Assembly: GCA_900320565.1 (NCBI GenBank)
Contig: ONSR01000012.1
Coordinates: 1 to 49,540, forward strand
Reading direction: 5' to 3'
DNA from: an uncultured Prevotellaceae bacterium
GTDB taxonomy: Bacteria; Bacteroidota; Bacteroidia; Bacteroidales; Bacteroidaceae
DNA length: 49,540 nt
The notes under the pieces were generated by a model. That model searched no databases, was not told where the DNA came from, and saw only the letters and a program-made list of their open reading frames with translations. Shown piece after piece: positions 4,526 to 48,583 of this stretch (the first letter of the stretch is position 1; the number at the start of each line of letters is the position of its first letter). Position numbers and translations under genes: made by a program.

Positions 4526-4554
4526 GTTACTTTATTTTTGTAGAGAGTAGTTAT

Positions 4555-4988
4555 GTAGTTAAGTAGTTAAGCCAATACTACAGCTAAAGGTCTTTACTGA
4601 AATCTTTGTCAATAACACCTTTGCAATAGCCATTCAACAACTTGCTTGTTTCTTCTACCATATCAAAAAGGTGATTGTAATGCTCTTCATCGATATAACC
4701 CAAGTCCCTTGAAAGCAAAACATAATATCTGCATTCCTCCAGACTACCTTGGGCAATGTTGTAAAAACGAAGTTTATCTGCTCTACTCAATTTCTTATAA
4801 CCTTCCGCTATGTTAGCAGGAATGGAAATAGCTGCACGTTGAAACTGAGAACATAACCCATATCTCTCAAAGTCAGGGAAGTTTTTTGTCTCCTTGTAAA
4901 CCATCAGCACAAAGTCATGTGCCTTCTGCCATGCAACGATTCCGTGAAAGTTATTAGTCATGAGGTAATGGCTTAACTACTTAACTAC
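4555..4988. repeat. 20-bp inverted repeats around the four-helix-bundle gene
   Basis: GTAGTTAAGTAGTTAAGCCA at 4555-4574 and its exact reverse complement TGGCTTAACTACTTAACTAC at 4969-4988 enclose the small gene at 4584-4961. The repeats are made of 8-bp GTAGTTAA words. A further run of the same words continues to about 5005. The arrangement suggests that the gene and its flanks were inserted as one unit between etfA and the acyl-CoA dehydrogenase gene. Confidence 0.8.
4584..4961 (-). CDS. Four-helix-bundle protein (S23 / IVS family)
   Basis: A 125-residue protein with family landmarks near the N terminus (WQKAHDFVLMVYKETKNFP), in the middle (QFQRAAISIPANIAEGYKK) and in the third helix (GSLEECRYYVLLSRDLGYI). 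The family was first seen as ORFs within 23S rRNA intervening sequences and is related to Avd, the accessory protein of diversity-generating retroelements. No reverse transcriptase is nearby. Function of the free-standing members is unknown; nucleic-acid binding is a reasonable guess. It sits inside the etf operon, flanked by perfect 20-bp inverted repeats, so it looks like a passenger and not an operon partner. Confidence 0.92.
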   Translation of the reverse strand: MTNNFHGIVAWQKAHDFVLMVYKETKNFPDFERYGLCSQFQRAAISIPANIAEGYKKLSRADKLRFYNIAQGSLEECRYYVLLSRDLGYIDEEHYNHLFDMVEETSKLLNGYCKGVIDKDFSKDL

Positions 4989-5010
4989 TCTAACTACTTA
5001 ACTACTGGTT

Positions 5011-8322: not shown

Positions 8323-9240
8323 TTAAGCCCTTCCCTTAAAGGGAGGATTTTGGAGAGGCTCTTTCGGCTCTACATGCACGACGACATGGGTCTCCTCGCC
8401 GTATTGTTTGCGCAGCCGGTCCTCCACTTCCGACGCGCGGTCGTGAGCCACGAGGAGCGGGAGATTGCCGTCCATAAGGATGTGAAGTTCGATAGCATAA
8501 TGGTTGCCAATGCGACGAGTCTTCAGGTCGTGAGGCTCCTCGACGCCCTCCACCGAACTGGCCAGCTGCAAGATTTCCTGCTCCACCTCGTCCGGAAGGG
8601 ACTGCTCGGTGAGGTCTCCTATCCCACCGCGCAGCAAGTCGAGGGCAACTTTGGCAATGAAGAAGCCCACGATGACTGAGGCCAGCGGGTCGAGCACCGC
8701 CCAACGACGGCCCAGGAAGATGGCTCCGCCGATGCCGATGGCTGTGCCTATCGACGACAGAGCGTCGCTGCGATGGTGCCAGGCATTAGCCTCGAGGGCC
8801 TGCGACTCCAGCTGCTTCGACTTCACCATCGTGTAGTGGAAGACGCCTTCCTTCATTATGATGGACAACAAAGCCGCCAGAAGCGCCAGCATACCCGGGG
8901 CTTCCAACTGCCCGCCCCTCGCCCAGACGACTATCTTAACCAGCCCTCCATACACGATTCCCACGGCAACTGCAAGCAGCATAAAGCCGATAATGGTCAA
9001 CGCCAAAGTCTCGTACTTGCCGTGACCATAGTCGTGCGACTTGTCTTTGGGTTTCGAGCTGATGTGGACGAAAGCCAGCACGATGATGTCCGTCACGAAG
9101 TCCGAGAGCGAATGGACTGCGTCGGCCACCATCGCGGCACTATGCCCCACGATGCCCGCCGTGAACTTGAAGGCAAGCAGCAACACATTCACCGCCCCGC
9201 CACACAGCGTCACGCGGTAGATTTCCTTGTTTCTCTCCAT
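8323..9240 (-). CDS. Cation diffusion facilitator (CDF) efflux transporter
   Basis: A 305-residue inner-membrane protein from the start MERNKEIYRVTL. An upstream ATG at 9426 would add 62 residues that lie in a repeat array and upstream of the promoter, so it was rejected. Metal-site motifs are HSLSDFVTDI in helix 2 and HHRSDALSS in helix 5. There are six membrane helices and a C-terminal cytoplasmic domain (ELHILMDGNLPL and HVVVHVEP). Such proteins export Zn, Fe, Mn or Co in exchange for protons; the metal here is not resolved. The last nine residues (LQNPPFKGRA end) come from an inserted palindromic element. Confidence 0.92.
   Translation of the reverse strand: MERNKEIYRVTLCGGAVNVLLLAFKFTAGIVGHSAAMVADAVHSLSDFVTDIIVLAFVHISSKPKDKSHDYGHGKYETLALTIIGFMLLAVAVGIVYGGLVKIVVWARGGQLEAPGMLALLAALLSIIMKEGVFHYTMVKSKQLESQALEANAWHHRSDALSSIGTAIGIGGAIFLGRRWAVLDPLASVIVGFFIAKVALDLLRGGIGDLTEQSLPDEVEQEILQLASSVEGVEEPHDLKTRRIGNHYAIELHILMDGNLPLLVAHDRASEVEDRLRKQYGEETHVVVHVEPKEPLQNPPFKGRA
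8326..8358. repeat. Intragenic palindromic element, copy 2
   Basis: AGCCCTTCCCTTAAAGGGAGG followed by ATTTTGGAGAGG is a copy of the palindrome whose core pairs CCCTT with AAGGG. It forms the 3-prime end of the CDF transporter gene, which reads into it and gains a short QNPPFKGRA-type tail. Confidence 0.6.
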
Positions 9241-9262
9241 CGCAAAACGTACTTTCTGCCTA

Positions 9263-9270
9263 CAAATATA
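9263..9270 (-). promoter_or_regulatory. Probable promoter -7 element of the CDF gene
   Basis: The minus strand reads TATATTTG, a TAnnTTTG match 23 bp before the chosen ATG at 9240. A second match (TAAGTTTG) lies at 9283-9290. Neither has a clear -33 TTTG at the best spacing. Both support the short form of the gene. Confidence 0.45.
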
Positions 9271-9372
9271 CTGTTTTTTTCGCAAACTTATCACGTTCCG
9301 GCAGAAAAACATCCCTGACGGAGGAAATCTTTTAACATCAAGAAAAGGCTGACTCCACACCACGAATCGCCA

Positions 9373-9460
9373 AACTCGACATGCTAAGTTCATTGCATAT
9401 ACATGTATATGCAATTGCACGTACATGTATATGCAATTGCAAGTCTAATCGGGCTTCCAG
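9373..9460. repeat. 22-bp word array A1 (alternating pyrimidine-purine palindromes)
   Basis: Four 22-bp units in register start at 9373, 9395, 9417 and 9439. The two middle units carry TGCATATACATGTATATGCA (a perfect 20-bp palindrome, alternating pyrimidine-purine throughout) and a transition variant of it. The outer units are diverged. The array fills much of the 327-bp gap between the CDF gene (ends 9240) and the C1-type peptidase gene (9568). It lies just beyond that peptidase's terminator. The rest of the gap holds the CDF promoter and nothing else recognisable. Array A6 near 42.1 kb has the same core. Confidence 0.85.
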
Positions 9461-12202: not shown

Positions 12203-12249
12203 CTTTGTAAATTTACTATTTGACGATTTACTATTTACTATTTAACAAC
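12203..12249. repeat. Short tandem repeats before the aminopeptidase start
   Basis: Words of the type TTTACTA recur in a 7-bp rhythm (GATTTACTATTTACTATTTA) in the 47-bp gap between the GH5 mannanase stop and the M24 gene start. Confidence 0.7.
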
Positions 12250-14693: not shown

Positions 14694-14847
14694 AACCTGC
14701 TACGCCGAGTCATTCAACGCCCTACGTTGCATTTGCAAACTCAACGTAGGGCGTTGACAATTCCCCTACGTTAAGTTGACCGACTTAACACGTCGAATTT
14801 TGCATGATTTGATGCTAAGTTTAACAACGAAGCCTGGTAAAGCGGCA
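14694..14847. repeat. 22-bp word array A2
   Basis: Seven 22-bp units in register start at 14694, 14716, 14738, 14760, 14782, 14804 and 14826. Most begin AAC, ATT or GAC and end in TGAC, TGCA or similar. Units 2 and 3 hold inverted cores (AACGCCCTACGTT and AACGTAGGGCGTT). Unit 4 begins ATTCCCCTACGTT and unit 5 has GACTTAACACGTCGAATT. The array occupies the middle of the 531-bp gap between the anSME-like gene (ends 14997) and the AraC promoter. I see no gene in the rest of the gap. Confidence 0.8.
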
Positions 14848-22018: not shown

Positions 22019-22035
22019 AATCTGTTATAATGTAT

Positions 22036-22251
22036 TTATTTAAGTTGTTCCTCTATTGGCTGTCCCAATTGAGCTGGCTCCGTTGTCGGCTCAAAACGTC
22101 CAACTACCTTGCCTTTGTAGTCGGCAAAGTTCACCTCCTGGCCCTTGTTCGACAGGGCGCTGAATTGATAAATGGTGTTCACAGAGTTTGTCTTACAAGA
22201 TAGCAGGCAAAGAGCGGCCGCCATGATTAAAAGAATAGGGTTGTATCGCAT
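22036..22251 (-). pseudogene. Glutathione peroxidase gene with its centre deleted
   Basis: The product is 71 residues from the ATG at 22251. The first part is a lipoprotein signal (LLIMAAALCLLSC), then TIYQFSALSNKGQEVNFADY, which is the N-terminal strand of Bacteroidetes glutathione peroxidases. The last part, GRFEPTTEPAQLGQPIEEQL, is the C-terminal helix of the same family. The two are joined at GKVV, a tetrapeptide expected at both sites in an intact gene. About 110 residues are missing, including the catalytic Cys (or Sec), Gln and Trp, so it cannot be a peroxidase. The reading frame is kept and the promoter is intact. A longer form from 22374 is rejected because it begins upstream of the promoter. 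Confidence 0.82.
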
Positions 22252-22282
22252 TCTGATGGGTGGTTTTTCTATGTTTGCTTTG

Positions 22283-22290
22283 CAAAGATA
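22283..22290 (-). promoter_or_regulatory. Promoter -7 element of the peroxidase remnant
   Basis: TATCTTTG on the minus strand, 32 bp before the ATG at 22251. No good -33 element is seen. Confidence 0.5.
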
Positions 22291-22742
22291 ATCAAAAAGA
22301 ACGACTTTTTGCATGATATTCAATAAATAATGCCTTTCAACGCAAAAAACAACTGTTCTGATGATGAAAAGCAAAGGTTATACATTAACGTGAGTTCAAT
22401 GAAATGAATTGTCTAATGCTAATTCGTTGAAATCGCGTTAATGAGTGGAACTTGTGGCTTTTATTTCTGATGTTTGCAATTTGATGTGCCATTTTGGTGC
22501 TTTGACAAAATGTAAGCAATTCGGCAGTTTTGCTTACAGGCAACTTTTCCTCGAATGCCTCAGAATCGCTTCTTTTGCCTCTGACCTTGTTTTTCGACCC
22601 CCGAGCAAAAATATGGGCTTAAATCGAAGACGGTTTCTCAACTATCTCTGCCACAGACTGTTAGAAGTACCTCCGCGCGACTGCCATTTTATCCCGATTC
22701 ATCGTTTTGCTATCTGCGGATGGCAAAACAGGCCGTTTTGAC
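22291..22742. other. Intergenic stretch without a convincing gene
   Basis: No supported gene lies between the peroxidase remnant and array A3. The 98-codon open frame at 22445-22741 has no recognisable domain and runs into the array. From about 22677 the sequence already falls into 22-bp words with T-runs, so A3 may begin there. Confidence 0.5.
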
Positions 22743-22918
22743 CCGAAATTGCACACTTTTTGACGTGAAGTTTCCACCAATTTCACACGAGAAATTTTCA
22801 AACGCGACACGTGAACTTTTCAAACTTCACGTGTCGCGTTTGAAAAGACCTCACGTCGCGCCGGCAAAATCGACGTAAAAAGTGCTCTTTTTCGACACTT
22901 TTCAGAGTGTGCAATTTC
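22743..22918. repeat. 22-bp word array A3 with a 21-bp perfect inverted repeat
   Basis: Eight consecutive 22-bp units (starts 22743, 22765, 22787, 22809, 22831, 22853, 22875, 22897) mostly end in GAC, CAC or CTC and begin GTG, ACG or GTA. Inside, 22795-22815 and 22826-22846 are perfect inverted repeats of 21 bp (left arm begins TTTTCAAACGCGACACGTGA) around a 10-bp loop. The first and last units carry GAAATTGCACACT (22745-22757) and its complement (22906-22918). This gives a nested hairpin about 174 bp long. Confidence 0.8.
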
Positions 22919-22968
22919 TAACACTTTGACGGCTTCTTATGTATTTTTGCTTACATTATGACAAAAGA

Positions 22969-23003
22969 AGCTCCCACCTTAATGCATGATTAAGGTGGGA
23001 GCT
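22969..23003. terminator. Strong terminator (small-peptide transcript)
   Basis: AGCTCCCACCTTAAT and ATTAAGGTGGGAGCT form a perfect 15-bp stem with a 5-nt loop. On the minus strand it is followed by CTTTTGTC. It would end the short transcript that starts near 23240. Confidence 0.85.
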
Positions 23004-23050
23004 TTATTGATTCCCCACTGAAGGGGGGGAGATTCAGATATGGCTATTCT

Positions 23051-23188
23051 TTACCATTCCTCGTCCCAGACATTGACCTGTTCCTTGGTGCGGGACTCGC
23101 CGTTTCCTGCGCCGCCATTCACGAGGCCGGCATTGCCTTTAACTTCGCCCACGCTCTGCATCAGCAAACCTTGATGTTGCAGCTGCAC
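23051..23188 (-). CDS. Small acidic Trp-ending peptide, start codon uncertain
   Basis: From a GTG at 23188 the frame gives 45 residues: VQLQHQGLLMQSVGEVKGNA and on to EQVNVWDEEW. I recall short Prevotella peptides of the form YxxPEIxxxQLQHQGLL...NVWDEEW, and the upstream codons still read YLSPEIII, so the gene belongs with them. No ATG in any frame lies between the predicted transcript start (about 23240) and this point. It has either lost its start codon, begins at GTG or ATT, or is decaying. Promoter and terminator are both intact. The function of such peptides is unknown. Confidence 0.5.
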   Translation of the reverse strand: MQLQHQGLLMQSVGEVKGNAGLVNGGAGNGESRTKEQVNVWDEEW

Positions 23189-23245
23189 AATGATTATTTC
23201 AGGGCTTAAATAATATAATAATGTATTTAATATAATTTTGGGCAG

Positions 23246-23276
23246 CAAAGGTACGAATAAGTGAAAATAATGCAAA
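23246..23276 (-). promoter_or_regulatory. Promoter of the small-peptide transcript
   Basis: On the minus strand TTTG (23276-23273), exactly 19 bp, then TACCTTTG (23253-23246). This is a full match to the Bacteroidetes promoter; transcription should start near 23240. Confidence 0.75.
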
Positions 23277-23306
23277 AAAATCATTATTTTTTTCAAGAAT
23301 AGCAAT

Positions 23307-23372
23307 AATTTGACGAGTTATGTTGCCTAACTTAACACGTCAAAATTGACAATATAACACGTCAAAAATGCT
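23307..23372. repeat. 22-bp word array A4
   Basis: Three units start at 23307, 23329 and 23351. Units 2 and 3 share TAACACGTCAAAA and end TTGAC and ATGCT. The array sits between the divergent promoters of the small peptide (minus) and the mannose-6-phosphate isomerase operon (plus). The word is shared with arrays A2 and A6 (TTAACACGTCGAATT type). Confidence 0.7.
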
Positions 23373-23388
23373 TTTTATCCACAATGAT

Positions 23389-23419
23389 TTTGCTTTTTGA
23401 ATTATATATTGTATCTTTG
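23389..23419 (+). promoter_or_regulatory. Promoter of the mannose operon
   Basis: TTTG at 23389-23392, 19 bp, TATCTTTG at 23412-23419. The ATG follows at 23440. Confidence 0.8.
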
Positions 23420-23439
23420 CAAAGGAAATATCATAATTT

Positions 23440-25173
23440 ATGAGAAAGAGCAATTATGACAAGCAGCCCTCAACACACATCGAAGGCAAGGTAATTAAAG
23501 GTTGGGATAGCATCGTCAAGACACTTTCCGAGGCTTGGGCAGACGAACCCGTATGGGCCATCGACCTCTACCCAGGCACTTACGAAGAAGACTTCATCGC
23601 CGCTTTTGCCAAGACGGGCAGGAAGATTATCAATACCCGCGACCTGATGCGACCGGAAGAGGAAATCCGACAACTCACAGAACGCTTCATGACGGATGAT
23701 GTTTTGTTCGGATATATGTCGAATGTGAGGCTGGAAGAGTACTTCAGCCCCCTCCCCGCTCCCCCTTTGGGGGAGTGCTCTGGAGGCATCGCCATCATCG
23801 GCACAGGAGCAGCCTTCGTCGCCAAGAAATGGTCAATGGTCAATGGTCAATGGTCAATAGTTTACGCCGACATGGCCCGCTGGGAGATTCAGCAGCGCTT
23901 CCGCCGTCACGAAGTGAAGGCGCTCGGCATCGACAACCACGAGGACAGTCCTTCGGTACAATATAAAAGAGGTTACTTCAACGATTGGAACATAGTTGAC
24001 CATTATAAAGACGAGTTGATGCAAAGCGGACGCATTCAGTTCTGGATTGACTCGAACAAGCGCGACGAACCCAAGATGATTACCGATGCCCAGATGCGGC
24101 AAGGACTGGATCGCACGGCTCACAAACCTTTCCGCGTCGTGCCCTTCTTTGACCCAGCGCCTTGGGGCGGGCAATGGATGAAGGAAGTGTGTGACCTGCC
24201 TCGCGAAGAACAGAACTATGGCTGGTGCTTCGACTGCGTGCCCGAAGAGAACAGCCTCTACCTGGAAGCAGAAGGCACACTCTTCGAACTGCCTTCGCAG
24301 GATGTTGTGTTGGCTCACACTCGCGAGCTGCTCGGGCAGCAGGTGTGGCATCGCTTCGGCAAGAGTTTCCCCATCCGCTTCGACTTCCTCGATACCATGC
24401 AGGGCGGCAACCTCAGTCTGCAAGTGCACCCGACTAACGAGTTCGCTCAAAGAGAGTTCGGTCTGCCTTATACTCAAGACGAGAGCTATTACCTGCTCGA
24501 TGCAGCCGACAATGCTGTTGTCTATCTTGGCCTGAAAGAAGGCGTTGACAAGGTGCAGATGATTGAGGACCTGCGGGCAGCACAGCGAGGCGAGATACTG
24601 TTCGATGCAGAGAAGTACGTCAACAAGTTGCCTGCCAAGAAGCACGACCACTACCTTATCCCAGCAGGCACTATTCATTGCTCAGGCCACGATAGCATGG
24701 TGCTCGAGATAAGCTCAACCCCAAGCATCTTTACCTTCAAGCTTTGGGACTGGGCACGACTTGGACTGGATGGCAAGCCACGTCCCATCAACGTGGAGCG
24801 CGGCAAGTACGTCATCCAATGGGACCGCACCACACCCTTCGTCAAGTCGCAAATCGCCAACCATTTCGAGGTGCTCAGCGACGAAGACGGCATCAAGGAA
24901 GAGCGGACAGGACTGCATCCCAACGAGTTCATCGAGACACGAAGGCACACCTTCACGCGTCCTGTTGAGCACAACACAAATGGCGGCGTGAATGTCCTCA
25001 ACCTTGTCGATGGCGAGGCAGCACTCATCGAAAGTCCTGAAGGCAAGTTCGAGCCCTTCGAGGTGCATTATGCCGAGACCTTCATCATACCCGCCTGCAT
25101 TGGTCTCTACACCATCAAGCCCTTGCAAGGAGAGTGCATGACAATCAAAGCATACGTAAGACAAACACTATAA
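23440..25173 (+). CDS. manA: Class I mannose-6-phosphate isomerase, long form
   Basis: A 577-residue protein that should interconvert mannose-6-phosphate and fructose-6-phosphate. The C-terminal 330 residues are the type I isomerase cupin: NLSLQVHPTNEFAQ (zinc His and nearby Gln), QDESYYLL (Glu) and PAGTIHCSGHD (His). The first 240 residues form an extra domain (PVWAIDLYPGTYEEDFIAAF) of unknown role that I believe is found in Bacteroidetes homologues. Two foreign insertions lie in this domain: a palindrome-derived SPLPAPPLGECSGG and a four-fold 7-bp repeat giving WSMVNGQWSI. The gene heads an operon with a ROK kinase and a permease. Confidence 0.88.
   Translation: MRKSNYDKQPSTHIEGKVIKGWDSIVKTLSEAWADEPVWAIDLYPGTYEEDFIAAFAKTGRKIINTRDLMRPEEEIRQLTERFMTDDVLFGYMSNVRLEEYFSPLPAPPLGECSGGIAIIGTGAAFVAKKWSMVNGQWSIVYADMARWEIQQRFRRHEVKALGIDNHEDSPSVQYKRGYFNDWNIVDHYKDELMQSGRIQFWIDSNKRDEPKMITDAQMRQGLDRTAHKPFRVVPFFDPAPWGGQWMKEVCDLPREEQNYGWCFDCVPEENSLYLEAEGTLFELPSQDVVLAHTRELLGQQVWHRFGKSFPIRFDFLDTMQGGNLSLQVHPTNEFAQREFGLPYTQDESYYLLDAADNAVVYLGLKEGVDKVQMIEDLRAAQRGEILFDAEKYVNKLPAKKHDHYLIPAGTIHCSGHDSMVLEISSTPSIFTFKLWDWARLGLDGKPRPINVERGKYVIQWDRTTPFVKSQIANHFEVLSDEDGIKEERTGLHPNEFIETRRHTFTRPVEHNTNGGVNVLNLVDGEAALIESPEGKFEPFEVHYAETFIIPACIGLYTIKPLQGECMTIKAYVRQTL
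23748..23787. repeat. Intragenic palindromic element, copy 3
   Basis: CTCCCCCTTTGGGGGAG is a palindromic core with flanks CCCCCTCCCCG and TGCTCTGGAGG. It is in frame within the isomerase gene and encodes PLPAPPLGECSGG. It is of the same class as the copies at 8326 and 42941 but with a G-rich variant core. Confidence 0.6.
23829..23856. repeat. Four tandem ATGGTCA heptamers inside the isomerase gene
   Basis: Four perfect copies of ATGGTCA, then a degenerate ATAGTTT. They encode WSMVNGQWSIV. Because 7 is not a multiple of 3, gain or loss of one copy would shift the reading frame. Confidence 0.9.
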
Positions 25174-35196: not shown

Positions 35197-36429
35197 ATGA
35201 TAATGAGAAGACTTTTCATTATGGGCATGTCTGTGCTCTATGCCTTTGCTATGCAGGCACAAGAGCAGATTCGTGTATGGAAGGAGGGCGAGAGCAAACG
35301 CTTCCGCACCTCGGAACTCGTATTCTCCGAGGACGGCACGTCTTTCCAGGTGAATGACTCTACCTACGACTGTGCCCAAATAGACAGCATCACCGTAGTT
35401 CATATTGTCACCGTTACTTTCGATGGCGACACGGCATACGTTGACCTTGGGCATGCTCCGAATGTTACGGATACAATTCAAGGCGCTCACGTCAAGTTGA
35501 TTAGCACCGACACGAAGAACGAGTTGGAGTTTGTGCTGCAGGGAGAGAGCACGCATGGTTCGTTGTATTACGACGGGCCGCTCAAGTGTAGGTTCTACCT
35601 GAATGGGCTCAACCTCACGAGCGACCAGGGTGCTGCCATCGACATCAAATGCGGCAAGCGCGTTGACCTGATTCTGAATGAAGGCACGGAGAATTTCCTT
35701 GCCGATGCAGCAGGCGGCGACCAGAAGGCTGCCCTGTACTGCAAGGGCCACCTCGAGGTTTCGGGTGGCGGCGCGCTCACCGTCTCTGGCAATGCCAAGC
35801 ATGGTATCGCCACGAAGGAGTACATGGAGATAAAGAAGAGCACGGGCAGCATCACGGTCAACAAAGCGGTATCTGATGCCATGCATATCGGGCAGTACTT
35901 CTTGATGAACGGCGGCACAGTGACGCTAAGCAAGCAAAAGGGCGACGGGCTGCAGGTGGAAATCCTGACAGACATCACGGAAAGCGGTGACACCATTCCG
36001 GACCCCGACAAGGAGGACAACGGACAGGTGTTCATCCGCGGCGGGTTGCTCACCATAACAGCTGAAGAGGACCTGACCAGAGGCATCAAAGCACCGCTCG
36101 ACATGACCGTCAGCGGTGGTACGGTTCGTGTCGAAGCTAGAGGCGACGGCTCCAAGGGCATCTCCGTGACACGCAATATGCTCATCAATCAAGAAACTGA
36201 TAACACCCTCATCCAGGTCTATGTCACAGGCGATACCTATGAGTACGACGACGACGACGAGGAGTATAATGTAGGTATCAGGGTAAAGGGCGACCTCACC
36301 ATCAATGCCGGAACCGTTCAGGTAAGCACCGGTCAACATAATTTCGGCATTAGGTTGAGCAAGAACAGCAAATACACGAAGTCCGACGAGGCAGTCGTGA
36401 ATGCCAAATTGTCGCGGGCAAGTAAATAA
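35197..36429 (+). CDS. Secreted Cthe_2159-like carbohydrate-binding protein
   Basis: A 410-residue protein with a signal peptide (about 1-22, ending MQAQ), a short module like that of the preceding gene, then a beta-helix of the Cthe_2159/DUF4353 type (about 90-400). Repeating turns read HGIATKEYMEIKKSTGSITV, DAMHIGQYFLMNGGTVTLSK, GIKAPLDMTVSGGTVRVEA and GIRVKGDLTINAGTVQVSTG. Family members bind calcium and acidic polysaccharide. An acidic insert (YEYDDDDEEYN) from a GAC-rich tract could add a calcium site. It closes the VTC operon and its stop runs directly into array A5. Confidence 0.85.
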   Translation: MIMRRLFIMGMSVLYAFAMQAQEQIRVWKEGESKRFRTSELVFSEDGTSFQVNDSTYDCAQIDSITVVHIVTVTFDGDTAYVDLGHAPNVTDTIQGAHVKLISTDTKNELEFVLQGESTHGSLYYDGPLKCRFYLNGLNLTSDQGAAIDIKCGKRVDLILNEGTENFLADAAGGDQKAALYCKGHLEVSGGGALTVSGNAKHGIATKEYMEIKKSTGSITVNKAVSDAMHIGQYFLMNGGTVTLSKQKGDGLQVEILTDITESGDTIPDPDKEDNGQVFIRGGLLTITAEEDLTRGIKAPLDMTVSGGTVRVEARGDGSKGISVTRNMLINQETDNTLIQVYVTGDTYEYDDDDEEYNVGIRVKGDLTINAGTVQVSTGQHNFGIRLSKNSKYTKSDEAVVNAKLSRASK

Positions 36430-36537
36430 CGCTCTGCCGAGGAGTGAAAAACGCCCTATAGGGGAATGACCAACGCCCTATAGGGGAATAGCAAACGCCC
36501 TATAGGGGAATGACTCTTCCCCTATAGGGCGTTTTTC
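36428..36537. repeat. 22-bp word array A5 (AACGCCCTATAGGGGAAT)
   Basis: Five 22-bp units start at 36428 (degenerate), 36450, 36472, 36494 and 36516. The three central units share AACGCCCTATAGGGGAAT, with a CCCTATAGGG palindrome. The fifth, in the same register, is an inverted copy (TTCCCCTATAGGGCGTT). It fills the entire gap between the convergent stops at 36429 and 36547. Confidence 0.95.
36494..36535. terminator. Terminator formed by the last two array units
   Basis: AACGCCCTATAGGGGAA and TTCCCCTATAGGGCGTT pair perfectly over 17 bp around a short loop, then TTTT follows on the plus strand. It would end the VTC operon and, from the other side, rmlA. Confidence 0.75.
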
Positions 36538-36546
36538 TATGCTGGT

Positions 36547-37455
36547 TTAAAGGTCGATATTTTCCTTACCGAAGCGCCTCACGTCTTCTATGACCTTCAG
36601 CAGATACTGCCCGTACTGGTTCTTGAGCATAGGCTGTGCCAGCGCACGCATCCGCTCTTCATCAATCCAACCCTTGCGGTAGGCAATACCTTCCAAGCAA
36701 CCGACCTTGAGTCCCTGCCGCTTTTCGAGAACCTCAATGTAGGTAGAGGCTTCGGAAAGTGAATCGAAGGTTCCCGTGTCAAGCCAAGCGAAGCCTCGAC
36801 CAAGTGTCTGCACCTTCAGTTCGCCATCCTCCAGGAAGCGTTGGTTGACAGTCGTTATCTCGTACTCGCCGCGGGCACTGGGCTTGATGTTCTTCGCCAC
36901 TTCGACCACCTTATTGGGATAGAAGTAAAGACCCACGACGGCATAGTTGCTCTTCGGATTGGCTGGCTTCTCTTCGATGCTGAGGCAGTTGCCCTGCTTG
37001 TCGAACTCTGCCACGCCGTAGCGCTCGGGGTCGTTCACCCAGTAGCCAAACACGGTTGCCTTCTTCTCTTCCTCTGCAGTGCGGACTGCCTCATGCAGCA
37101 AAGCACTGAAGCCATTGCCCTGAAAGATGTTGTCGCCAAGCACGAGGCAGGCGCAATCGTCGCCAATGAAGTCAGCGCCAATGGTAAAGGCCTGGGCCAA
37201 TCCGTCGGGCGAAGGCTGCTCGGCATATGTGAAGTGTACGCCATAGTCGCTGCCGTCGCCGAGCAAACGCTTGAAGCCCGGCAGGTCGAAAGGCGTGGAG
37301 ATGATGAGGATGTCGCGTATTCCAGCTTGCATCAGAACACTGATGGGGTAGTAAATCATCGGTTTGTCGTAGATAGGCATGAGCTGCTTGCTGATGCCTT
37401 TCGTGATGGGATATAACCGAGTGCCGGAGCCTCCGGCAAGAACAATTCCTTTCAT
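36547..37455 (-). CDS. rmlA: Glucose-1-phosphate thymidylyltransferase
   Basis: A 302-residue nucleotidyltransferase that makes dTDP-glucose from glucose-1-phosphate and dTTP, the first step to dTDP-rhamnose. The N-terminal signature is [20 protein letters not shown] followed by [16 protein letters not shown]. Also visible are [36 protein letters not shown] with the catalytic Asp, [20 protein letters not shown] and [11 protein letters not shown]. rmlB, rmlC and rmlD are not in the window. The length matches the long RmlA type. The start codon follows a run of 8-bp repeats. Confidence 0.96.
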
Positions 37456-37511
37456 GGTTAGTCTTTTATTTTGTCGTTATGACGTTATAACGCTATTTCA
37501 TTATAACGATG
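37456..37511. repeat. 8-bp imperfect tandem repeats before rmlA
   Basis: From about 37472 the gap reads as 8-bp words GTCGTTAT, GACGTTAT, AACGCTAT, TTCATTAT, AACGATGT. It lies between the Dabb gene and rmlA, both on the minus strand. Confidence 0.6.
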
Positions 37512-39550: not shown

Positions 39551-39589
39551 ATTGCTGACTTAACTTTTTGAAATTCCATTTATTTTGTA

Positions 39590-39722
39590 GGTAAGTAGTT
39601 AAGTAGTTATCGCTTCGCTCGTCCTCCGGACTGTAGTTAAGCCAAAACCATTATGCCTGCTTTCGACTTTCCAAACATTCGGCTTATCTACTTAACTACT
39701 GACTACATAACTACTTCCTAAC
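39590..39722. repeat. Empty inverted-repeat site like that around the four-helix-bundle gene
   Basis: GTAAGTAGTTAAGTAGTTA and TAGTTAAGCC on the left face GGCTTATCTACTTAACTACT and CATAACTACTTCC on the right. These are the same words that bracket 4555-4988, but only about 45 bp with no gene lie between them. A GCTTCGCTCGTCCTCCGGAC insert splits the left arm. Confidence 0.75.
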
Positions 39723-40585: not shown

Positions 40586-42010
40586 ATGGCAAACCTCAAA
40601 GCTCTGGCCAAAGACACGGCCATATACGGACTCTCGAGCATCGTGGGTCGTTTCCTCAATTACCTGCTTGTACCGCTCTACACGCACTACATGCCCAAGG
40701 CTTCCGGCGACTATGGAGTGAACACGAACATGTATGCGTACACCGCTTTGTTCTTTGCCATCCTGACGTTCGGCATGGAGACGACGCTCTTCCGCTATGC
40801 CAACGACGAGCGCGAGACGCCCGACACCGTCTTCTCCACCGGCTTTGCGATGGTGGGGAGCCTCGCCGCAGTGTTCCTTTTGCTGGTCTTCGGCTTCATC
40901 ACTCCCATTTCGAATTACCTGGGATATGCTGAGCATCCGGAATACTTGCTGATGATGGCGACGGTGGTTGCGCTGGATGCCTTGCAGGCACTGCCTTTCT
41001 GCTTCCTTCGTTTCCAGCATCGTCCCATCCGATTCATGTCGCTGAAGATGGGCTTCATCTTCCTCAACATCGCGCTTAACCTGCTCTATTTCGTCCTGCT
41101 CGGCAAGACGAGTGTGTTCTATGTCTTCTTCATAAATCTGCTTTGCACAGGCTTCATCACCTTCTTCTTCATTCCTGATTTGGTGAAGATACGTTGGAAG
41201 TTCGACGGCGCACTGCTTCGAAGGATGCTTTCCTACTCGTGGCCGATACTGCTTTTGAGCGTCATGGGCATCCTGAATCAAGTGGCGGACAAGATACTTT
41301 TCCCAAAGGTTTACCCCGACCAGGCACAGGCCAATGTGGAACTCGGCGTGTATGGCGGCTGCGTGAAGATAGCCATGATTATGGCCATGATTACCCAAGC
41401 CTTCCGATTCGCCTACGAGCCCATCGTTTTCTCGAAGGCTAAAGATGCCGACAAGAACGAGTATTACGCCTTGGGCATGAAGTATTTCATCATCTTCACC
41501 CTGCTCGCGTTCCTCTGCGTGATGGGCTGGCTGCCCGTACTTCGCTACATGATCGGCTCCGATTACTGGGACGGATTGCGCGTCATTCCCATCGTAATGG
41601 CTGCGGAAATCATGATGGGCATCTACTTCAACCTGTCCTTCTGGTACAAGTTGATTGATAAAACCATCTACGGCGCCCTGTTCTCTTTGGCAGGATGCCT
41701 CGCTCTGCTGGCCGTCAACATCTGGGGCATTCCCCATTACAGCTACATGGCTTGTGCCTGGGGAGGCGTCGCAGGATACGGAACGGCGATGCTCCTGAGC
41801 TATTTCGTGGGGCAACGCATCAATCCCATCCCCTACCCGATTGGCTCGATAGCGCTTTATGTCATCATCGCAGCCGCGTTCTATGGGGTGATGACGCTTG
41901 TTCCGTCGGAATGGCCGATGTATTGCTACCTGGCCATCAGCACGCTGCTCATCCTCGTCTATGCAGCCATCATCTACAAGAAGGAGTTGAGAAAAGGCCA
42001 AGTTGCCTGA
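40586..42010 (+). CDS. Polysaccharide flippase (Wzx/MATE-like)
   Basis: A 474-residue inner-membrane protein with about 14 helices and the MVF/PST flippase layout. The opening is LAKDTAIYGLSSIVGRFLNY, then LLVPLYTHYMPKASGDYGV. Internal segments are WPILLLSVMGILNQVADKIL and AFRFAYEPIVFSKAKD. Such proteins move lipid-linked glycan units across the inner membrane for capsule, O-antigen or glycoprotein assembly. No glycosyltransferase cluster is adjacent. It is a single-gene unit with its own promoter, ending before array A6. Confidence 0.9.
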   Translation: MANLKALAKDTAIYGLSSIVGRFLNYLLVPLYTHYMPKASGDYGVNTNMYAYTALFFAILTFGMETTLFRYANDERETPDTVFSTGFAMVGSLAAVFLLLVFGFITPISNYLGYAEHPEYLLMMATVVALDALQALPFCFLRFQHRPIRFMSLKMGFIFLNIALNLLYFVLLGKTSVFYVFFINLLCTGFITFFFIPDLVKIRWKFDGALLRRMLSYSWPILLLSVMGILNQVADKILFPKVYPDQAQANVELGVYGGCVKIAMIMAMITQAFRFAYEPIVFSKAKDADKNEYYALGMKYFIIFTLLAFLCVMGWLPVLRYMIGSDYWDGLRVIPIVMAAEIMMGIYFNLSFWYKLIDKTIYGALFSLAGCLALLAVNIWGIPHYSYMACAWGGVAGYGTAMLLSYFVGQRINPIPYPIGSIALYVIIAAAFYGVMTLVPSEWPMYCYLAISTLLILVYAAIIYKKELRKGQVA

Positions 42011-42021
42011 TCGCGTCACCC

Positions 42022-42131
42022 GACTTAGCACGTCGAATTCGTTGATTCATCATGATGACTCTATTGCACATACATGTACATGCAATTGCATATACATGTA
42101 CGTGCAATTGCATGTACATGTATGTGCAATA
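42022..42131. repeat. 22-bp word array A6 (alternating pyrimidine-purine palindromes)
   Basis: Five units start at 42022, 42044, 42066, 42088 and 42110. The first contains GACTTAGCACGTCGAATTC (a word shared with array A2), the second the palindrome TCATCATGATGA. The last three fit TGCAYRTACATGTAYRTGCA, in which every step alternates pyrimidine and purine and all differences are transitions. It lies between convergent genes, abutting the terminator of the transglutaminase gene. Confidence 0.92.
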
Positions 42132-42168
42132 AAAACACCCTGCCTAATCTGACGATATAGGCAGGGTG
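42131..42168 (-). terminator. Terminator of the mannosidase-transglutaminase operon
   Basis: CACCCTGCCT and AGGCAGGGTG form a perfect 10-bp stem; on the minus strand the stem is followed by TTTTTATTG. It lies 20 bp past the stop at 42188. Confidence 0.85.
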
Positions 42169-42187
42169 CATTCGTATCTCGACAGGC

Positions 42188-44686
42188 TTATTCCTTCAAG
42201 ATGACCTTTCGAAGTGCGTCCATCAGCTGGTCGGCCAGGCCGATGTTGTAGCCCTGACGATACCAGACGACGCGGTTGAACGTGTCACAAAGCAGGAGGA
42301 GCGGCAGTTCCTTGTTGCCGTGAGTGAGTTCCTCGATGTGCATCGCCTCGATTGTAGCAGGGTCTGCGACGCCGAAGAGCACGTTGCTTGGCAGGTCGTC
42401 GAACTCCTTGCGGTCGAAGTTGGCGAAGTCTTCCTGGCTCTCGAACAGCATGAGGTAGCAGCCGGACCACTGCGAGATGTGTATGTTGGCTGCCTCCATG
42501 TCGTGCAGGAGGTGCGTGCTCGGCTCGTGACCGCTGCGGATGAGGGCTATCATATAGAAGCCTCGTCCGGTCGTTTCCAGTATCTTCTTGTGCACGCCCT
42601 TTATGTTCGTGAAGTAGTTCTCGCAGTCGAAGTTGCCGATGACATGCAGGTGCTCGTCGTCCGCACGCAGCCGCAGTTGTTCCGTATGTTGCTGTTGTGC
42701 TGCAACATTAAATATATTAAGGTTCGCCCAAACGCTGCCATTCGCCAGACGAGTGCCGCTGAGGAGCATGTATTGGCCTGCCTCGACGTTCACGCCATCA
42801 GCAAAAGTCTCTTTCCACGTCGCACTCTCAGGGTATTCCTGCAACTGCGGACGACCGTTCTCGATGCGCGAAAGTGCGAAATGCGAGTAGTAGGAAGGGT
42901 TCTCCTTGACTGCCTGATCGGTGTAGTTGAGGCGCAAAGACCCCTCTAAATCTCCCCTTAAAGGGGAGACTTCCTGTTTTGAGTCCTCTCCCTTTAAGGG
43001 AGAGTTAGAGAGGGTCTCCACTTTTCCTGTAACCTCATCTATGCGTGCGGGAATACCGATGGCACGGGCTGCCGACACGAGGAAGATGTCGCGGCTGTGA
43101 GCGTCGCACGTTCTGTGGCGCAACACGCCGAGCGGACTCATGCAGAGATGCTGCGGGTTGCGGGTCTCGTCCACCGTTATGCTGTCCTTCACCCACTGCA
43201 GAAGTTGCTCGGCCGTCATGCCTCGGAAGTACGCTTGGAGCGCTCCGCGGCACGGTGTCAAGCGTTCGTTGGCCACACGCGGGCTGAGGACATATTGCCT
43301 CTTCCCTTCCTCTCCCGATGGGGAGGCGTGTTGTGCCACATCCATCAGCACGTCGAGCGTGACGTCGCGATAGTCTTTCTTTGAAAGCGTAGCAAGGATG
43401 TCGTCGGCCAGCTTCTTGTCGGAACAATTCTTTCGGAACGCCTCGATGGTTCGCCAATTAGCGCGAGCCAGTGCTTCAGGGCTGCCTGGTTTGGCATCCT
43501 GACAGAAGGCCTGATTCATGTAGGCGATGCGGATGCTGTCTTCCTCGGCGAGGCGTTTGCGGTTGGCGCGTACGGCATCGGCACTCACATCGGGCTTGTT
43601 GTCCTTACCAAACGGCGGTACGAGGTCGAACTCGAGCGATGCGCTGTACGTGCTGTCCTTGTCTATGACCACAGTCACCAGGGCTTCCTTGCCAACACTC
43701 ACTTTCTTGAAGCCGAACTTGCCGCCCTTGCTTGCCCAGACTATCAGGTCGCCCTTGCCGCACGTCAACGACGACTTGCCCTTCGCATCGCTCTGTTTCG
43801 AGACGATTGGGTAGAGTTCTGCGTAGTTGTAAAGGCGGTAATCGACCGTTGCACCCTCGACGGGAAGGCTGTCCTGGCTCAGCACGGTGACGATGATGGT
43901 TGAGACATCGCAGTAGTTCTTCGTGACGTTTATCTCGGTGTAGCACGCTGTCTTGTTCACCACTTCCTCGGGGCCGGTGTAATCCCCAAAGGCTTTCGTG
44001 TGCATGAGCATGCCTCTGCTGGCCGATTCGTTGAACCATCCGAGGTTCAGCAACGGCTCAGGTTCGCAAGCGCCCAAGAAGTACCAGTTGCCATCGACCC
44101 AGGCCTCGACCCAAGCATGGTTGTCATCCGTGTGGGCCCAACGCGGCGTATAGACCTGGCGGGCAGGGATGCCGATAGTGCGCAGGGCAGTGACGGTGAA
44201 GGTGCTCTCCTCTCCGCAACGTCCGATGGCCGAGCGAAGTGTGTTCATCGGCGAGGAGGTGCGGCTGTCGCTGGGTTGGTAGCTGACGTGTTCGTGGCAC
44301 CAATGGTTCACTTCCAGCACGGCGGCGTACATCGTCTTGCCTTCCACACGAGCCTTCAACTCGTCGTAATAAGCGATACGGAACGAGTCGAGGTCCTCGT
44401 TGTTGACGCGCAGAGGCAGTACGAAATGCCTCCACTCTCGGCCAGGAACCTTTTCGCCCCAAGGCATCTCGTGGCGTGCCTTGACCGCCACACGCGCGTT
44501 GGCTTCCCAGAACTCGCGCGGGTAATCGACGCTGTCGGGCAGCGGCATCCCAGCATACAGGAAGTCGAGTGCGTCCTGCACCTCAGCCTCATCACCGCTC
44601 GTACAAGCCGAGAAAAAGGCGGCCACAAAAGCAAAGAGCCCTACAACGAGGGCTCCTGCTGGTATCTTTCTGTGTTTATTCTGCAT
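42188..44686 (-). CDS. Transglutaminase-like lipoprotein
   Basis: An 832-residue protein with a lipoprotein signal (FVAAFFSAC, Cys28). A transglutaminase-like domain spans about 115-215, with Cys157 in SAIGRCGEESTFTVTAL and His190 in TDDNHAWVEAW. The third position reads FLGACEPEP where an Asp is usual. Beta domains at about 240-370 follow (VVIDKDSTYSASLEFDLV). A second, shorter transglutaminase-like segment is at about 530-560 (RTCDAHSRDIFLVSAARAIG and IPARID). Residues near 560-590 (SNSPLKGEDSKQEVSPLRGD) come from two inserted palindromes. It is the last gene of the GH92-GH125 operon and overlaps GH125 by 11 bp. Protease-like cleavage of mannosylated proteins is a guess. Confidence 0.85.
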   Translation of the reverse strand: MQNKHRKIPAGALVVGLFAFVAAFFSACTSGDEAEVQDALDFLYAGMPLPDSVDYPREFWEANARVAVKARHEMPWGEKVPGREWRHFVLPLRVNNEDLDSFRIAYYDELKARVEGKTMYAAVLEVNHWCHEHVSYQPSDSRTSSPMNTLRSAIGRCGEESTFTVTALRTIGIPARQVYTPRWAHTDDNHAWVEAWVDGNWYFLGACEPEPLLNLGWFNESASRGMLMHTKAFGDYTGPEEVVNKTACYTEINVTKNYCDVSTIIVTVLSQDSLPVEGATVDYRLYNYAELYPIVSKQSDAKGKSSLTCGKGDLIVWASKGGKFGFKKVSVGKEALVTVVIDKDSTYSASLEFDLVPPFGKDNKPDVSADAVRANRKRLAEEDSIRIAYMNQAFCQDAKPGSPEALARANWRTIEAFRKNCSDKKLADDILATLSKKDYRDVTLDVLMDVAQHASPSGEEGKRQYVLSPRVANERLTPCRGALQAYFRGMTAEQLLQWVKDSITVDETRNPQHLCMSPLGVLRHRTCDAHSRDIFLVSAARAIGIPARIDEVTGKVETLSNSPLKGEDSKQEVSPLRGDLEGSLRLNYTDQAVKENPSYYSHFALSRIENGRPQLQEYPESATWKETFADGVNVEAGQYMLLSGTRLANGSVWANLNIFNVAAQQQHTEQLRLRADDEHLHVIGNFDCENYFTNIKGVHKKILETTGRGFYMIALIRSGHEPSTHLLHDMEAANIHISQWSGCYLMLFESQEDFANFDRKEFDDLPSNVLFGVADPATIEAMHIEELTHGNKELPLLLLCDTFNRVVWYRQGYNIGLADQLMDALRKVILKE
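42941..43014. repeat. Paired intragenic palindromic elements, copies 4 and 5
   Basis: Two palindromes (cores TCTCCCCTTAAAGGGGAGA and TCTCCCTTTAAGGGAGA) lie in inverted orientation, bounded by CCCCTCTAAA and TTAGAGAGGG. They are in frame and add about 25 residues (LSNSPLKGEDSKQEVSPLRG and on) to the transglutaminase-like protein, between two conserved segments. Confidence 0.8.
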
Positions 44687-46106: not shown

Positions 46107-46148
46107 CGTTATTGCGTTATTACGTTATTGCGTTATTTAGCTGTCACT
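46107..46148. repeat. 8-bp tandem repeats before the GH125 start
   Basis: CGTTATTG, CGTTATTA, CGTTATTG, CGTTATTT in direct succession fill the short gap between the GH92 stop and the GH125 start. The units differ only in the last base. Confidence 0.85.
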
Positions 46149-48495: not shown

Positions 48496-48583
48496 CACAT
48501 CACACGCCGAATCAACCAACGCAGGCAGGGGCGTTGCTCAACGCAGGCTGTTAAGTTTGCAATTCCCCTATAGGGCGTTTACT
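48496..48583. repeat. 22-bp word array A7
   Basis: Four units start at 48496, 48518, 48540 and 48562. Units 2 and 3 both begin AACGCAGGC and end GCTC or TGCA. Unit 4 is ATTCCCCTATAGGGCGTT, the same word as the last unit of array A5. The lead-in CGAATCAACC matches CGAATCGACC before array A2. Confidence 0.82.

Follow-up and report, generated by a model that had tools for sequence, protein, structure and literature searches.

Intergenic arrays of 22-bp dyad-symmetric units in an uncultured Prevotellaceae bacterium and its relatives

We analyzed a stretch of 49,540 nucleotides from an uncultured Prevotellaceae bacterium (contig ONSR01000012.1 of GenBank assembly GCA_900320565.1; this whole stretch is called the window) and the intergenic arrays of 22-bp units that it contains. 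The unit of these arrays is an 18-bp dyad-symmetric core followed by a 4-bp spacer. The units keep register and dyad symmetry; in one sequence type, word 1 (AACGCCCTATAGGGGAAT), both the core and the length of the spacer are conserved. In two genomes the arrays show a bias in their position relative to genes, and the words turn over between relatives. We favour the reading that the arrays are rows of phased double-stranded sites for one or several dimeric proteins, mostly near gene ends, and give it a probability of a little over 40%. It is preferred because the core sequence and the spacer length are conserved, the spacer sequence is free and the units are dyads.

Results

The 22-bp period is an intergenic property

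An earlier note, based on the letters of the window alone, had cut seven intergenic gaps into consecutive 22-bp units. Lag 22 was indeed the best of the tested lags (12-33) in all seven gaps. The lag-22 identities of the seven arrays, in coordinate order, were 0.55, 0.38, 0.45, 0.61, 0.72, 0.69 and 0.41, compared with 0.24-0.28 in mononucleotide shuffles; the worst P value from these shuffles was 0.0022, for the array at 48496-48583.

The analysis was then widened to 432 kb of the same genome (G000, 89% complete), made up of the window and stretches L021-L040. Genes were called with a custom hexamer script and gaps were counted only if they had at least 50 bp, which left 152 gaps. The three strongest intergenic lags between 5 and 79 were 22, 44 and 66. 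A lag-22 score of at least 16 occurred in 50 of the 152 gaps, a count that is biased upward by the choice of some stretches around word-1 hits; none was expected from shuffles. In coding DNA the lag-22 identity was 0.246, versus 0.241 for lags of equal codon phase. The period is therefore stronger between genes than in shuffled or coding DNA, the point on which the earlier note had staked its proposal.

A fairer estimate comes from a sister genome, G237, in which the first 20 kb of contigs 1-40 were taken without regard to arrays. The median protein identity of the two genomes is 98% (83 reciprocal best hits above 60%). Arrays were present in 80 of 259 gaps of G237, a run of N that scored as an array being excluded from this count. 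They were also present in 15 of 135 gaps of 19 other stretches from the genus; a twentieth, L042, had no readable letters and was left out. Most of the genomes compared are metagenome-assembled, and the closest named records are metagenome-assembled genomes, mostly ruminant, labelled Bacteroidaceae, Bacteroidales or Prevotellaceae; these labels do not establish the genus Prevotella that the earlier note had assumed.

Tandem Repeats Finder, which permits indels, was used as an independent check. Period 22 was the leading period in G000 (41 arrays), in G237 (79 arrays) and in the 19 genus stretches (10 arrays), so that the class described in the earlier note recurs in related genomes. It also led, with 9 arrays, in 25 stretches that belong to the family but lie outside the genus. 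It was not leading in the rest of the order, where its 2 arrays equalled the numbers for periods 20, 15 and 13. The lag statistics and Tandem Repeats Finder together exclude a chance origin of the arrays. Coding repeats are excluded as well, as 22 is not a multiple of 3 and the coding lag-22 identity is at background.

Spacing is strict and the core is conserved

Copies of word 1 were clustered at separations of up to 60 bp, which gave 180 copies in 53 clusters; one cluster, close to the start of a contig (L037), lies within a called gene. Among the 127 intervals between neighbours, inverted ones included, 125 are 22 bp and two are 44 bp, and no indel of 1-3 bp was found. Wider intervals were uncounted, and three of these (95, 110 and 110 bp) contain the structured module described below. 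Neighbouring copies have the same orientation in 118 intervals and are inverted in nine. Among the 118 head-to-tail spacers there are 33 different sequences; a comparison of adjacent ones shows differences at 127 of 296 positions (43%). The core diverges at 5.9% per position, with zero at several central positions (74 adjacent full units); this value is somewhat underestimated since copies with more than three core mismatches were uncounted. The presence of only two 44-bp intervals suggests that few units were lost through this limit. When all words were considered, the spacing was less uniformly strict: Tandem Repeats Finder gave 0% indels in 30 of 41 period-22 arrays of G000 and 71 of 79 of G237; the figures for arrays of other periods (at least 10) were 23 of 33 and 38 of 59.

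Compared with a null in which the units were permuted, dyad symmetry was above the null mean in 45 of 50 arrays of G000, 72 of 81 of G237 and 14 of 15 of the 19 genus stretches. The 81 arrays of G237 include the N run. The earlier note had pointed out that many cores are palindromic, and this is supported.

Many words share one register

The 46 stronger arrays of G000, a sample biased toward word 1, make up eight word families: word 1 with 30 arrays, the AACTCGGCACGTCGAATT type with 6, word 2 (TTGCAnnTACATGTAnnTGCAA) with 5, and five singletons. The 75 arrays of G237, with the N run dropped, form ten families, led by 49 of AACTTAACACGTTAAGTT type; word 1 occurs in 2. We also searched eight whole genomes. 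Word 1, at up to two mismatches, was found 190 times in G000, 42 in G237, 33 in G034, 26 in G219, 3 in G064, once in G035 and not at all in G088 and G019, with zero hits for the reversed controls in all eight. The earlier note had seen some words return in several arrays of the window, and the sharing is far wider than that. For AACTTRACACGTYAAGTT, at up to three mismatches, the numbers are strand hits, in which a palindrome may match on both strands: 269 in G000, 443 in G237, 42 in G034, 62 in G219, 18 in G064, 143 in G035, 299 in G088 and 19 in G019. Its reversed controls gave 2 to 12 hits (3 in G000, 2 in G237). An apparent switch of the dominant word between G000 and G237 was dropped because it rested on stretches picked for word 1; the whole-genome counts show a shift of balance only.

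Mosaic arrays change word from unit to unit without leaving register (L035, L032), and half-site chimeras can be recognized by eye at 14716 and 14760 of the window. Word 2 has the layout fixed-nn-fixed-nn-fixed. A two-patch conservation profile seen with mixed words was set aside, since a tandem array offers two dyads to choose from, and that choice can generate it. The orientation of word 1 relative to the genes in co-oriented gaps was not significantly biased (20 same, 10 opposite, p 0.10).

Arrays of the window and their neighbours

The arrays of the window and the adjoining features are as follows, with the strand given where one applies.

9373..9460: word-2 array, two clear units and diverged flanking units
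14694..14847: mosaic array of 7 units, in ungapped alignment to G237 across the whole 531-bp gap
22743..22918: array of another word set (TTTTCAAAC/GTTTGAAAA-like), in the divergent gap 22019-23439
23307..23372: three units of AACTTAACACGTCAAAATT type, in the same divergent gap
35197..36429, + strand: Cthe_2159-like protein (PF14262), left neighbour of the focal array
36450..36533, + strand: focal array in a convergent gap, word-1 cores at 36450, 36472 and 36494 (+) and at 36516 (inverted)
36547..37455, - strand: nucleotidyl transferase (PF00483), right neighbour of the focal array
40586..42010, + strand: polysaccharide biosynthesis protein (PF13440), left of the 42022 array and anchor for the cross-species gap comparison
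42063..42130: word-2 array, three units of TTGCAnnTACATGTAnnTGCAA, in the convergent gap 42011-42187; the units at 42022 and 42044 are diverged
42130..42171, - strand: terminator-like hairpin with U-run (fold z -5.4), adjoining the word-2 array and separate from it
42188..44686, - strand: transglutaminase-like protein (PF01841), right of the 42022 array and anchor for the cross-species gap comparison
48496..48583: weak mosaic array that includes a single word-1 unit, inverted, at 48562

The strength of these arrays is uneven. Those at 36428-36537 and 42022-42131 are clear tandem arrays; those at 14694-14847 and 48496-48583 are mosaics of diverged units, and the repeat finder reported neither. 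The first unit of the focal array had been placed at 36428 in the earlier note, which is incorrect: that 22-mer is not one of the repeat units, and it runs over the stop codon of the gene that ends at 36429. The focal array closes with an inverted core pair that forms a hairpin, and a run of five T (T5) comes after it. The array at 9373-9460 overlaps a listed cation-efflux open reading frame (8323-9426), whose listed start lies inside the array. As the cation-efflux domain starts only at residue 78, the true start probably lies further downstream than listed.

Other features were noted beside the arrays. At 42958-43034, within and antisense to the transglutaminase-like gene, ARAGORN called a tRNA with anticodon TTA, which is probably spurious. 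A second, AT-rich class of intergenic repeats has period 7/14/21 (AGAATGA, AATTGAC, TTATCTA) and occurs at 12211-12244 and 23828-23858 of the window and in L053, L041 and L043; in G000, in G237 and in the genus sample, lag 14 ranks third in frequency, behind 22 and 44. Repeats of period 8 (CTTAACTA, GTAGTTAA, CGTTATTG, CGTTATAA) are located at 4546-4571, 4972-5006, 37475-37508, 39587-39609, 39683-39716 and 46107-46137 of the window, and sequence resembling 37469-37509 was found again in several relatives.

Arrays crowd toward gene ends in two genomes

Arrays are found in convergent, co-oriented and divergent gaps, at 2.92, 1.31 and 0.78 arrays per kb, respectively, in G000 and 1.94, 1.33 and 0.53 in G237. 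A count by gap gives convergent gaps a significant excess only in G000 (p 0.025; p 0.30 in G237). Within co-oriented gaps the array is closer to the upstream stop than to the next start in 21 of 27 cases in G000 (p 0.006) and in 39 of 51 in G237 (p 0.0002; one of the 51 is perhaps the N run).

Register outlasts the words

Gap 42011-42187 was compared between species in the best 30 loci (G000 and 29 relatives) of 106 matching genomes among 139, and could be measured in 22 of these loci. Arrays of 22 bp are present in fifteen of them. G026 has a palindromic array of 21 bp instead, G089 and G052 have 9/18-bp arrays built of TCTAG/CTATAGG, and in the remaining four loci the gap is without an array. 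The 15 array-containing gaps have seven distinct lengths from 111 to 375 bp, all of which leave a remainder of 1 or 7 modulo 22. The chance that seven independent lengths fall into at most two classes is about 3e-5, a statistic that ignores phylogeny and rests on a single gap followed over many species; with any other modulus between 15 and 30, the lengths fall into four to seven classes. Inspected by eye, different lineages have mostly unrelated words in this gap, and the gap of G000 resembles that of the distant G019 more than that of its sister G237. Gap alleles have therefore either been exchanged between lineages or been kept through speciation.

The two sisters show the turnover of words directly. 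At 14587 of L039 a word has been replaced between G000 and G237 inside alignable flanks, one version being 44 bp longer. In one orthologous mosaic, G000 is richer in word-1 units and G237 richer in AAGATGGCACGTTAAGTTTGCG units. The array at 14694-14847 aligns to G237 without an indel and differs at 21 of 154 positions, versus 22 of 377 in its flanks (p 0.005). Over all orthologous gaps, the differences in length between G000 and G237 are not mostly multiples of 22, because the flanks also change and the called gene ends differ. An excess of differences equal to 20 modulo 22 was not used, as in several of these gaps the flanks are unalignable or one flanking protein is only 76-77% identical.

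The focal gap was inspected in eleven genomes. It holds 22-bp arrays in G000, G237, G219, G238 and G019, a mixed 21/22-bp array in G035 and only the inverted pair in G034. A plain hairpin takes the place of the array in G088, G026, G070 and G228 (by eye). The inverted-pair end of the focal array is retained in G237 and G034; the length of the gap differs from that in G000 by exactly 44 bp in G034 and by 27 bp in G237.

Some word-1 arrays adjoin a structured module

Among the 46 word-1 arrays with at least two copies, six at different loci have a flank in common that is 96.8-100% identical, and 40 have no shared flank within 100 bp. A miniature inverted-repeat transposable element (MITE) with fixed ends behind all arrays is thereby ruled out. 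No exact double-word match to word 1 or word 2 was found in viral_contigs, and a phage origin of these two words was rejected.

The shared flank contains a module of 81-91 nt with four predicted stems and compensatory changes in them, 8 of 24 pairs having changed on both sides (13 sequences). Its conserved motifs are ACTGAATGT, CCCCACAAAGGGG and TTCCCA.

L033:3172-3262: structured interspersed element (module); copies also in L244, L246, L248, L249, L254, L268 and others

No Rfam family matched the module over threshold. BLAST found 10 copies in G000: seven beside word-1 units, one cut by a contig end and two without word-1 units. Copies in G237 and G219 are 99-100% identical to those of G000; this is not by itself transfer, since the flanks show some to be the same loci. 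In a search with a model of the module, 29 of the 61 genus genomes gave matches, and as many as 31 copies (weaker ones) were counted in a single genome; the 38 genomes that represent other genera of this family gave none. Two contigs of G064 meet at the module within a word-1 array: C55 (L247) is 96.6% identical to contig C88 of G000 (L035), C167 (L253) 75%. This junction possibly reflects a recent transfer that breaks at the array, or else a misbinned contig. The module may be a new interspersed RNA or DNA element. At least one word may thus travel fused to it; most arrays are without it.

Pairing tests

If RNA pairing were under selection, G-U should be tolerated above A-C at dyad positions of the sense strand. 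No such excess was seen in co-oriented gaps, with 49 G-U to 85 A-C in G000, where word 1 drives the count; for the G237 arrays other than word 1 it was 121 to 139.

The variable dinucleotides of word 2 were analyzed in 19 arrays with 56 units, nine single units being dropped. They are complementary within a unit at 19 of 112 positions, versus 39.8 expected (sd 4.7), which is rarer than chance, as if the nn bases went unread within the unit. Between neighbouring units the value is 43 of 148 versus 52.8 expected, and over the whole array 42 of 112 versus 40.0. It looks as if perfect 20-bp palindromes were avoided in word-2 units (window 42065-42128; L024, L030, L061-L073).

When arrays were folded, the focal array was far below its shuffles (z -9.3). 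Seven of eight folded strands had z of -3.3 or lower; the remaining strand, at z -1.35, was not below shuffles. The window has no Rfam match above the gathering score, and known Rfam RNAs were accordingly rejected as the identity of the arrays. The last pair of the focal array has the stem-loop and U-run of an intrinsic terminator. The class as a whole lacks this combination: T5 follows 5 of 41 arrays in G000 and 4 of 67 in G237, and precedes 1 and 2, respectively.

Discussion

Phased sites for dimeric proteins

The arrays present dyad sites at a constant helical spacing, the arrangement of a tandem operator array. A unit would consist of two 9-bp half-sites, often with AAC......GTT outermost, and a 4-bp spacer. 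Successive dimers of one DNA-binding protein, or of a few related ones with different preferences, would lie two helical turns apart on one face of the DNA, where adjacent dimers probably touch each other. Such cooperative binding near the ends of transcription units may produce a protein filament that acts as a boundary, i.e. as a roadblock, an insulator or a supercoil barrier. Minority words of a mosaic could take over with the register kept if whole 22-bp units are gained and lost, and copying between loci would spread words. The suggestion of the earlier note that proteins bind on one face of the helix is consistent with the spacing, the symmetry and the conservation of the core, and in this form it is the best reading.

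A number of observations weigh against it. The many words per genome would require several binding proteins or one tolerant protein. Slippage alone maintains a period, and 22 is not an obligatory one, given the 21-bp, 9/18-bp and array-free versions of gap 42011-42187. Tandem Repeats Finder detects some indels in 11 of 41 (G000) and 8 of 79 (G237) period-22 arrays. The small genus sample (19 stretches) does not show the bias toward stop codons (5 of 9), 13 of 66 divergent gaps of G237 hold arrays, which are consequently not strictly gene-end elements, and the bias in position could reflect avoidance of promoters. The convergent gaps of G237, which have no defined sense strand, show G-U slightly above A-C (52 to 33, p 0.05). 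Finally, in one of the four measures on word 2, which omits the self-paired middle unit, the outer units are complementary at 39 of 80 positions versus 28.6 expected (sd 4.2, P 0.008). This favours a long hairpin, which the DNA-site model does not predict.

A satellite

The arrays could instead be a selfish or neutral satellite. Copying between loci, or transport by a mobile vehicle, would then spread the units, and slippage or unequal exchange would lengthen the arrays; the period would be inherited rather than selected, and the host would gain nothing. We consider this unlikely as the full explanation. Word 1 has expanded recently, judging from its 190 copies in G000 against 0-42 in relatives; six word-1 arrays carry nearly the same flank at different loci, and the sisters have amplified different units within one gap. 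All of this is expected of a satellite. Neutral repeats, however, should gather short indels, of which the 127 word-1 intervals have none despite the divergence of their spacers. Core and spacer would be copied together, yet they diverge very unequally. In addition, unrelated words have dyad symmetry in common, and 40 of the 46 word-1 arrays share no flank. The satellite behaviour is real and may be the entire story; the absence of indels in word 1 and the symmetry of unrelated words argue otherwise.

An RNA or cruciform element

On mixed evidence, we regard it as unlikely that the arrays act at the level of RNA or as cruciforms. Units of an array would then pair with one another in the transcript and would serve, in both directions, to terminate transcription or to shield 3' ends. 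The structural RNA that the earlier note had offered as an option draws support from the fold of the focal array, with its inverted pair and T-run kept in two relatives, and from the outer units of word 2. The low folding energies of most strands, the crowding of arrays in convergent gaps and at gene 3' ends, and the plain hairpin that replaces the focal array in four genomes point in the same direction. This option does not agree with the G-U counts in co-oriented gaps or with the small number of T-runs. The variable bases of word 2 show no enrichment of pairing within the unit, between neighbours or over the whole array, and only nine of 127 neighbouring word-1 copies are inverted. Moreover, the 42022 array has a separate terminator-like hairpin next to it, divergent gaps also carry arrays, one folded strand is no more stable than its shuffles, and Rfam has no match in the window.

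Recombination sites

Sites for site-specific recombination or transposon ends, where exchange at the centre of a unit would swap words in register, could account for the half-site chimeras, for a register that outlasts word replacement and for the likeness of gap 42011-42187 between G000 and G019, but we consider them very improbable: a search aimed at Y1 transposases alone among such enzymes found none in G000, most word-1 arrays share no flank, and gain and loss of units accounts for the register by itself.

Comparison with known systems

Searches of open-access literature found no description of arrays of 22-bp palindromes that follow this rule. Repetitive extragenic palindromic (REP) elements and the bacterial interspersed mosaic elements (BIMEs) that they form are often near gene ends. 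REP palindromes are tagged by GTAG/CGTC and alternate in clusters, according to two papers (PMC3733652, PMC2817692). Like the arrays, they are short, palindromic, intergenic and high-copy; they have been described as protein-binding sites. The arrays differ from them in running head-to-tail at 22 bp rather than alternating (118 of 127 word-1 neighbours in the same orientation) and in having many unrelated words per genome; inspection of the word-1 core revealed neither a GTAG nor a CGTC tag. The Y1 (RAYT-type) transposase domain PF01797 had no match in the 89% complete G000, in a search that was positive in 5 of 14 control genomes. REPs driven by RAYT are therefore ruled out, as no such transposase was found and word 1 has neither the tags nor the alternation.

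Two repeats from the same order are also similar in part. BrickBuilt, a minisatellite-MITE of Porphyromonas gingivalis, is described in the sections of PMC4596501 devoted to it as a 23-nt unit of one sequence at 19 loci, with a leader and a tail that have inverted ends. Like the arrays, it is made of tandem units between genes, each about two helical turns long, in a member of the Bacteroidales, with predicted stem loops; unlike it, the arrays have a 22-bp unit, many words and no common flank in 40 of 46 word-1 arrays. The same sections mention 22-nt tandem repeats in P. gingivalis W83 without stating their locations. PINSR of Prevotella intermedia is, in the section on it in PMC4755523, a 188-bp incomplete repeat without terminal inverted repeats. 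It shares with the arrays that it is high-copy, intergenic and lineage-specific, and that section describes no 22-bp dyad array.

The closest functional analogy would be the ARG boxes of ArgR, paired 18-bp palindromes about two turns apart that are bound by one oligomer; their spacing is 21 bp, and there are two boxes in each of a few operators. The ARG-box consensus, TGAATnnnnATTCA, is palindromic and had no match on the + strand of the window and L021-L040 (432 kb). ARG boxes were rejected as the identity of the arrays on this ground. The iterons of plasmid replication are direct repeats about 22 bp apart that are bound in phase, with one origin-linked array per replicon; in contrast, about a third of the gaps of G237 carry arrays, with many words.

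Significance

A wider claim, that the arrays are a new chromosome-wide element, a phase-locked nucleoprotein scaffold of Bacteroidaceae in which the two-turn spacing is selected and the word sequence is replaceable, is tentative and in our judgement rather unlikely. If it were true, the words would co-evolve with fast-changing DNA-binding proteins, as a species-specific dialect of gene boundaries on a common 22-bp grid.

An element for which we found no name would be present in about one in three of the longer gaps between genes in some rumen bacteria. Its rule, that length is conserved and sequence replaceable, suggests arrays of protein on DNA, and sister genomes show words in the middle of replacement. 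If a binding protein is found, it would represent a new way of marking gene boundaries or of organising the nucleoid. If none is found, the arrays would clearly exemplify concerted evolution of a satellite in bacteria.

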